Positions 10,474-12,073 of a stretch of DNA of 64,000 nucleotides are shown here, in pieces. Position numbers and translations under genes: made by a program. This DNA comes from Thermoplasmata archaeon (GTDB lineage: Archaea; Thermoplasmatota; Thermoplasmata; Lutacidiplasmatales; UBA184). Positions within the stretch are counted from its first letter, which is position 1; each line of letters begins with the position of its first letter. The stretch covers positions 1-64,000 of the forward strand of contig JAKIWV010000005.1 in the NCBI GenBank assembly GCA_022749815.1. The letters are read 5' to 3'. The notes beneath the pieces were generated by a model, which saw nothing but the letters and a program-made list of their open reading frames with translations, was not told the DNA's origin and did not search any database.

Positions 10474-10635
10474 ATTCGACACCCTCCCCGCATCGGACCG
10501 GGGCCGCCGGCCGCATATCCGTAAGAGAGAGAGGGGACGAAATGCAGATAGTCGTTTCCGTCCGTGCTCGCGGCTCTTTGGGGCTTCGGCCACGTCGCGG
10601 CAAGCCGAAATACCGGGTCCACGCAATGCATCGGC

Positions 10636-11694
10636 ATGGCTACGTCCCGCGCGAGCGGATCGGCGCAGATGCGCGAGTGGACCCGAGCGTTTCCCGCGCA
10701 ACTTCGATCCGGCTTCGCCGCCGGCCGGGCCCTCGAGTTCCGATGGCCCCGCGGCGTTGACCGGAGCGTGGTCGTCGGGATGGGAGGCTCCGCGATCGGG
10801 GCCGACCTGCTCCGCTCGCTCACCGATGCGGAGACTGACCTTCTCGTGCAGCCCGTCCGGGAGCCGACGCTTCCACGGTGGGTCGGCCCGTCCACGCTCG
10901 CGGTGGCGGTCAGCTACTCCGGGGACACCTGGGAGACCCTCGCGGCGTTTGATGTTGCGGGACGACGAGGGGCGCCGCGCGTCGCGGTGAGTTCCGGGGG
11001 ACGCCTCCAGCAACTGGCCCGCGCGGAAGGGGTCCCCCACCTGATGGTTCCCCCGGGGCTGCAACCACGGGCGGCGCTGGGCTCATTGCTCGGGGGACTC
11101 CTCGGCCTCTTCGACCCGGCCTTCCCCGCCTCCAATCGGGATCGATTGGACCGGGCCTCCAAGGTTCTGTTGATGGGAGCGGACGAGCTGGGGGGAGCCG
11201 CAGGGCCACCGACGCGACTCGCGGCCCGAATCCGCGGGCGACTCCCTTGGATCTGTTCATCGGAGGAGCTAGCCCCGGTCGCCCGCCGATGGGCCACTCA
11301 AATCGAGGAGAACGCGAAGCGCCTCGCACATTGGGACGCGCTCCCGGAGAGTCTGCACAATGTGCTCGTCGCATGGGACGCGCTCACCCGGCGGGAAGCG
11401 GAGCGTTACTTCGTCGTTCGGCTCCAGGGAGCGGGCGATGACCAAGCTCTGCGTGACCGGTTCGAATATCTATCGAAATTGCTCGCTGGGCGCAAAGTCC
11501 CGGTCGCTACCGTCCGGTTCGAGGCCTCCGACCGTTTAGAGCGTACCCTCTCGGCCATCCAGTGGGGGGATTATCTCAGTCTTGCGCTGGCGGAGTTGGG
11601 CGGAGTGGATCCCTTTCCGGTCGAAGCAATCCAACGAATGAAGCACCGACTCGAGAAGGACCACAAGAGCCGGAACACTATCGACGACCGGTGA
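10636..11694 (+). CDS. Bifunctional phosphoglucose/phosphomannose isomerase (SIS domains)
   Basis: 352 residues from ATG 10636; ATG 10669 (MREWTRAFP) is almost equally good. GMGGSAIGADL and SYSGDTWETL are the two SIS-domain phosphosugar-binding loops of the archaeal/bacterial PGI/PMI family. Near the C-terminus PFPVEAIQRMKHRL matches the family's catalytic-helix region, and an EENAKRLAHWDALPE stretch gives the conserved N-E-hydrophobic acidic motif. The enzyme interconverts fructose-6-P with glucose-6-P and mannose-6-P in the cytosol, linking glycolysis with sugar-nucleotide synthesis. It is divergent from the KaiC operon, and the two starts are about 160 bp apart. The gene is complete with no missing motifs. 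Confidence 0.85.
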   Translation: MATSRASGSAQMREWTRAFPAQLRSGFAAGRALEFRWPRGVDRSVVVGMGGSAIGADLLRSLTDAETDLLVQPVREPTLPRWVGPSTLAVAVSYSGDTWETLAAFDVAGRRGAPRVAVSSGGRLQQLARAEGVPHLMVPPGLQPRAALGSLLGGLLGLFDPAFPASNRDRLDRASKVLLMGADELGGAAGPPTRLAARIRGRLPWICSSEELAPVARRWATQIEENAKRLAHWDALPESLHNVLVAWDALTRREAERYFVVRLQGAGDDQALRDRFEYLSKLLAGRKVPVATVRFEASDRLERTLSAIQWGDYLSLALAELGGVDPFPVEAIQRMKHRLEKDHKSRNTIDDR

Positions 11695-11729
11695 GGTTCT
11701 TATGTCGCGCCTTCTTGGCCGCGTCGGGT

Positions 11730-11849
11730 GCTGAGGTAGCCTAGCTCGGCCAAGGCGCCAGATTCGAGATCTGGTGGTGCGTATGCATCGCGGGAGTTCA
11801 AAGGGCCCTCGGGGAGAAGCCCGACCGCCGGAAAATCTCCCCCTCAGCG
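11730..11849 (+). tRNA. tRNA-Ser(CGA) with an intron of about 33 nt in the T-loop
   Basis: All class II tRNA parts can be placed. The acceptor strand GCTGAGG (11730-11736) pairs with CCTCAGC (11842-11848), followed by discriminator G73. TA is at 8-9, and the D-arm GCC/GGC has A14, G15, G18 and G19. The anticodon stem CCAGA/TCTGG has loop TTCGAGA, so the anticodon is CGA. There is a 5-bp variable-arm stem (GGTGC/GCATC). The T-stem GGGAG (11792-11796) pairs with CTCCC (11837-11841). The T-loop starts TTC and ends T, but 37 nt lie where 4 are expected, so about 33 nt must be removed to give TTCAAAT. AAA at the left junction and AAAA at the right leave the exact cut uncertain by a few bases. A long variable arm and G73 fit serine. 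CCA is not encoded. Confidence 0.85.
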
Positions 11850-11860
11850 CCTCCCCCGTC

Positions 11861-12073
11861 GTGCGGATCCATCTCGCGGTCGCGCGGGCGGGACGGTCCG
11901 ACCAGCACACGGTGGAAGTCGCGAGAGGCACGCCGCTTCGCGTCGTTCTCCGGTCGATCGGGCAAGCAGTCGAGGGTAGCGCGGTTCTCCTCGGGGGCCG
12001 GCCGGTGCCGCTCGACCTCCCGCTTGAGCGGAACGCTCGATTCACAGTGATTCCGACCTTCTCGGGGGGCTGA
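11861..12073 (+). CDS. Ubiquitin-like small modifier / sulfur carrier (SAMP/MoaD/ThiS type)
   Basis: 70 residues from GTG 11861. An upstream in-frame ATG would fall inside the tRNA gene, so I reject it. The pattern is a beta-grasp protein: a first strand RIHLAVARAG, a helix-preceding EVARGTPLRVVLRSI, VLLGGRPVPLD, and a final strand FTVIPTFSGG ending in the diglycine that is adenylated by E1-like enzymes. Archaeal members act as sulfur carriers for molybdopterin or tRNA thiolation and as protein tags. MoaC, MoaB and MocA are encoded in the window, but no E1-like activator is. Which of the two roles applies here is not decided by sequence. Confidence 0.75.
   Translation: MRIHLAVARAGRSDQHTVEVARGTPLRVVLRSIGQAVEGSAVLLGGRPVPLDLPLERNARFTVIPTFSGG

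Follow-up and report, generated by a model that had tools for sequence, protein, structure and literature searches.

A predicted T-loop intron with a bulge-helix-bulge motif in a tRNA-Ser(CGA) gene of an intron-rich Thermoplasmata lineage

The interrupted tRNA-Ser(CGA) gene

The window, the whole 64,000-nucleotide stretch of DNA that was analysed, contains a complete class II tRNA-Ser(CGA) gene with an intron at 11730–11849 on the forward strand, recognised by a stem complementarity parse, its orthologues and a partial Rfam match. The parts of the tRNA gene, the AT-rich element ahead of it and the small modifier candidate behind it lie on the same strand. The acceptor stem joins GCTGAGG (11730–11736) to CCTCAGC (11842–11848) in seven of seven pairs, the discriminator base G73 is at 11849, and the anticodon CGA occupies 11765–11767 within the loop TTCGAGA. 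The long variable arm is of the serine type, and the parse thus bears out the class II tRNA-Ser(CGA) with G73 proposed in the initial annotation. The T-stem, GGGAG (11792–11796) with CTCCC, forms all five pairs and closes a loop of 40 nt, which equals a normal 7 nt loop plus 33 nt. The 5’ exon ends with T-loop nucleotides 54–59, TTCAAA (11797–11802), the same as in intronless orthologues; the intron fills 11803–11835, between tRNA positions 59 and 60; and the 3’ exon (11836–11849) contributes T60, the T-stem strand CTCCC, the acceptor strand CCTCAGC and G73. The split had indeed been placed in the T-loop, and its estimated length of about 33 nt is exact. The mature tRNA would measure 87 nt including G73, CCA being absent from the gene. 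Folding of the whole precursor gives z = -3.16, which, with the orthologues and the pairing statistics below, speaks against a chance arrangement.

Upstream, the AT-rich sequence TTCTTATG (11697–11704, at -33) is a candidate archaeal box A (TATA) element; in the studied genome, AT content ahead of 35 tRNA genes is highest at about -36 to -30, the stretch into which TTCTTATG falls. Scans for bacterial promoters and terminators found nothing, as expected in an archaeon. The 5’ neighbour (10564–11694) is a gene resembling bifunctional phosphoglucose/phosphomannose isomerase. On the 3’ side lies a weak SAMP2-like small modifier gene (~11861–12073); this ubiquitin-like candidate scores below the cut-off, has GG at its end and begins about 11 nt past the tRNA.

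Standard callers miss the tRNA gene, as had been anticipated. ARAGORN does not report it at 11730–11849, nor does the same program with intron options detect T-loop introns. The Rfam tRNA model puts the 3’ end wrongly at 11814, and its score of 26.8 bits falls short of the 29-bit cut-off. Twelve introns of the studied genome and three of relatives served to train R1, a covariance model of the intron-bearing T-arm. Because the Ser(CGA) intron is among these 15 training sequences, the 58.8 bits that R1 gives it are not independent evidence. Censuses of such genomes with standard callers will overlook tRNA genes.

Splice motif and orthologues

The bulge-helix-bulge (BHB) motif expected of an archaeal intron is present at both exon-intron junctions and spans 11797–11836. 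Loop nucleotides 54–57, TTCA (11797–11800), pair with four intron nucleotides, GGAA (11830–11833), that end two nucleotides before the 3’ cut, leaving bulges of 3 nt each, AAG (11801–11803) and AAT (11834–11836), while the intron helix lies within 11804–11829. The central helix comprises three standard pairs and an A57-G mismatch, and strictly the motif is a near-BHB owing to this fourth pair. A cut after loop nucleotide 6 would release the 33 nt and leave TTCAAAT, restoring the canonical T-arm GGGAG-TTCAAAT-CTCCC.

The same pattern recurs in other genes. Excision of each of the 12 T-loop introns first analysed in the studied genome yields TTCAAAT, TTCGAAT or TTCGATT; the central helix has four standard pairs in seven of them and an A-G fourth pair in the other five. 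G57 stands opposite an intron C in 5/5 cases, and A57 opposite U or G. Across 15 T-arm introns, 94.1% of paired cells hold versus 67.2% in shuffles (0/500), the intron helix covaries, and register shifts of one to three columns abolish pairing. Taken alone, the Ser(CGA) intron hairpin exceeds shuffled sequence in stability by a moderate margin only (z = -1.74).

Intron-bearing tRNA-Ser(CGA) genes occur in ten genomes of the family, with the BHB kept. Their exons are identical at 82–87 of 87 positions (94–100%), and their introns, 33 nt long in nine of the ten, are 58–76% identical. Other genomes carry tRNA-Ser(CGA) without an intron, and those of the same family read GGGAG-TTCAAAT-CTCCC exactly. 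One intronless gene is found in genome G019, whose genus (g5) also includes three intron carriers (G009, G014 and G024), indicating that the Ser(CGA) intron was gained or lost recently. Gain or loss of a T-loop intron is observable within one genus. The initial annotation had asked for a check for an intact tRNA-Ser(CGA) elsewhere; searches with RF00005 and R1 found no second copy in the studied genome, where the other serine tRNAs have the anticodons TGA, GCT and GGA. This assembly of 5 contigs is 93% complete, so a second copy could be missing from it.

These comparisons bear on two other readings of the locus. First, it could be a tRNA pseudogene produced by random insertion. An intact tRNA-Ser(TGA) is present in the genome and could serve the codon UCG through wobble, and standard callers reject 11730–11849. 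However, the exons are nearly invariant across ten genomes while the insert diverges, the insertion site is constant and the length nearly so, the BHB is kept, and the exons of intronless orthologues are the same. Thirteen more tRNAs of this genome share the insertion site, including the sole copies found for Asn, Asp and His, and a pseudogene is very improbable. Second, the mature tRNA could retain the insert and so have an enlarged T-loop, with the stem-loop fold of the insert stacked beyond the T-stem. The T-loop is required for the tRNA elbow, a need with which a retained insert would conflict; moreover, orthologues without the intron exist and the motif for the splicing endonuclease EndA is preserved. 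This second alternative is hardly credible at all. With high confidence, the region is instead read as encoding a functional tRNA-Ser(CGA), its gene interrupted at 59/60 by a BHB intron that is predicted to be excised by EndA, with RtcB joining the exons, in an intron-rich lineage. Sequence comparison identifies the gene, its intron and motif, their conservation, the intronless orthologues and the enzyme genes, and the tRNA would then be transcribed, cleaved and ligated.

Introns in the studied genome and across Thermoplasmata

The tRNA family search with RF00005 (43 genes) and R1 (two more) yields 45 tRNA genes in the studied genome; the R1-only genes are Leu(TAG), at C3:341333–341389, and a weaker His(GTG), at C3:239472–239528. 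Twenty-one of the 45 (47%) are interrupted, by 23 introns in all, and some genes carry two each. Fourteen introns are in T-loops (Ser CGA, GCT and GGA; Arg TCT and TCG; Asn; Glu CTC; Gly TCC; Ala GGC; Gln CTG; Asp; Lys TTT; Leu TAG; His), five are in D-loops (a Met-type CAT, Arg GCG, Lys TTT, Pro TGG and Leu TAG) and four are at 37/38 in anticodon loops (Met, Tyr, Glu TTC and Leu TAA). The four anticodon-loop introns have the same geometry as the T-loop introns, with an A-G fourth pair in two. RF00005 and R1 gave no match for tRNA-Trp or tRNA-Pro(GGG) in the studied genome; these may be absent, in assembly gaps, or more heavily interrupted. In tRNA-Glu(TTC) (C1:436056–436156, reverse strand), the loop after removal of the 37/38 intron reads CCTTCGA, so that position 33 is apparently C in place of the near-universal U. 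Two genes with T-loop introns, Gln(CTG) and Leu(TAG), lie side by side in the studied genome (C3:341094–341400) and in G009 (C12:4757–4990).

T-loop introns had been described as rare in euryarchaea, which fails for Thermoplasmata: all 61 family genomes searched have R1 matches, 7–14 in each, and the parse is just as clean for the T-loop-intron loci of three more genomes, from other genera of the family. R1 counts are 11 for UBA184, 11 for UBA61 and 10 for AcS1-67. A sample of 250 genomes from the class gave one or more matches at E <= 0.01 in 161; beyond the family, one or two per genome is the usual number, and zero is frequent. Sixteen chosen genomes outside the family have 1–10 matches each at a looser cut-off, the larger R1 searches having run under stricter filters, and the overall range in non-family Thermoplasmata is 0–10. 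All 30 loci parsed from outside the family are tRNAs interrupted at 59/60, often Lys(TTT) with a D-loop intron as well. This double-intron tRNA-Lys(TTT), with D-loop and T-loop introns (L213, L217, L219, L220, L226, L227 and L230), appears in many Thermoplasmata families, and its recurrence suggests that it is old. T-loop introns can be as short as 13–15 nt (L218 and L231; G026, a genome of the same order).

UBA184 and AcS1-67 have been assigned to the Lutacidiplasmatales (PMC9287336), in a paper in whose main text ‘intron’ never occurs. The EndA of the studied genome is ~66% identical to theirs. The host is an acid-soil archaeon, and its lineage is most likely Lutacidiplasmatales of the Thermoplasmata.

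A recent spread of the T-loop introns by tRNA-to-tRNA copying, as proposed for Thermoproteales by Fujishima et al. 2010 (as cited in PMC8450103 and PMC4390854), would fit the identical site and motif in 14 tRNAs. However, intron cores of different tRNAs in the studied genome resemble one another no more than shuffled sequences do, and Ser(CGA) introns are common to several genera, which renders recent copying unlikely; old copying followed by divergence is possible. Similar introns in different tRNAs, the hallmark of transposed introns of the Thermoproteales type, were not found, and that candidate was rejected. Alternatively, introns may be kept for disrupting tRNA 3’ halves that serve virus or plasmid integration, a role that Randau and Soll suggested for introns of archaeal tRNAs generally (as cited in PMC4090602). 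T-loop introns do sit within the segment that Sulfolobus viruses use as attB, but about half of the tRNAs found are uninterrupted and still available, and this explanation is about as doubtful as recent copying. We infer that the spread of T-loop introns was largely neutral.

Splicing enzymes and known intron systems

The studied genome has one EndA gene, coding for 355 aa with two PF01974 and two PF02778 domains (two endonuclease repeats), and no gene for a second EndA subunit scores above the cut-off. This EndA is assigned to the duplicated single-gene, alpha’2 type. Y291, H299 and K330, the catalytic Tyr, His and Lys of the C-terminal repeat, were matched through an alignment with 1a79 and are invariant in 21 aligned EndA proteins. 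At the level of sequence, the catalytic repeat shows no visible CSL/ASL insertion (Lys-bearing, 11–18 residues near the active site) relative to 1a79, and the YK insertion of ARMAN-2 is not seen in the alignment of the studied EndA. The predicted structure, a monomer model, has a pLDDT of 92.7; it best matches the Archaeoglobus homodimer and, closest of all, the subunit-fusion enzyme of Methanopyrus kandleri, 5x89 (TM 0.88 by query length). An RtcB ligase gene is also present (E=1.8e-171).

The proposed splicing rests on the likeness of the T-arm to the anticodon arm. Each has a 5-bp stem and a 7-nt loop (54–60 versus 32–38), and the sixth and seventh loop nucleotides meet at 59/60 in the T-arm as they do at 37/38 in the anticodon arm. 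Loop nucleotides 1–4 (TTCA) would pair with the end of the intron to form the two 3-nt bulges, EndA would cut between nucleotides 6 and 7 with the geometry of a classical 37/38 intron, and RtcB would ligate the exons. The lineage appears to have gathered such introns in many tRNAs with a duplicated single-gene EndA and no visible CSL/ASL loop.

Canonical euryarchaeal introns at 37/38 share the 5-bp stem, 7-nt loop, 4-position helix, 3-nt bulges and 6/7 cut, but the Ser(CGA) intron lies in the T-arm. Fewer than 10% of euryarchaeal tRNA genes are reported to have introns, one each in the canonical position, a pattern linked to alpha4/alpha2 enzymes (PMC4090602). Intron diversity, in turn, is linked to CSL/ASL loops (PMC6379350, PMC12397907), and reviews tie noncanonical introns to heteromeric or loop-bearing endonucleases (PMC4090602, PMC6379350, PMC12397907). 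The Thermoplasmata family departs from both statements, intron scarcity and the enzyme-loop link. Similar to this family, Thermoproteota such as Thermoproteales have noncanonical BHB introns in D- and T-loops, several per genome and two in some genes. However, those hosts have an (alpha-beta)2 EndA with a Crenarchaea-specific loop (PMC6379350), unlike the one single-gene EndA here, and in the studied genome most introns are in T-loops, with no visible sign of intron copying. At 23/45 = 0.51 introns per gene, density lies between the overall figure of 0.21 and the 0.84 of Thermoproteales (PMC8450103). Taken singly, the introns belong to a known kind; what is new is their load and the enzyme context, of which no published report was found in the mainly open-access literature.

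On balance, we lean slightly towards an alpha’2-type EndA without CSL or ASL handling this heavy noncanonical load, at times two introns per gene. If so, intron diversity would be separable from the broad specificity conferred by the loops, the decisive feature would be a hairpin whose loop has 7 nt, and A-G as the fourth pair of the central helix may also be tolerated by the EndA of this lineage. The family makes it possible to test directly whether enzymes and introns have coevolved, as has been proposed. The homodimeric EndA of Ferroplasma cuts minimal BHB substrates at 30 C and needs no tRNA body (PMC8707768), making position-independent cutting plausible. Similar to the studied EndA, those of Ferroplasma acidarmanus and Thermoplasma acidophilum are alpha’2 enzymes of the same archaeal class, each from a single gene with two repeats, but they measure 288–290 aa rather than 355. 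Residues 104–128 in the N-terminal repeat of the studied EndA form a loop, PRGG...KTP...W, that Thermoplasmata conserve well and that is shorter in Archaeoglobus.
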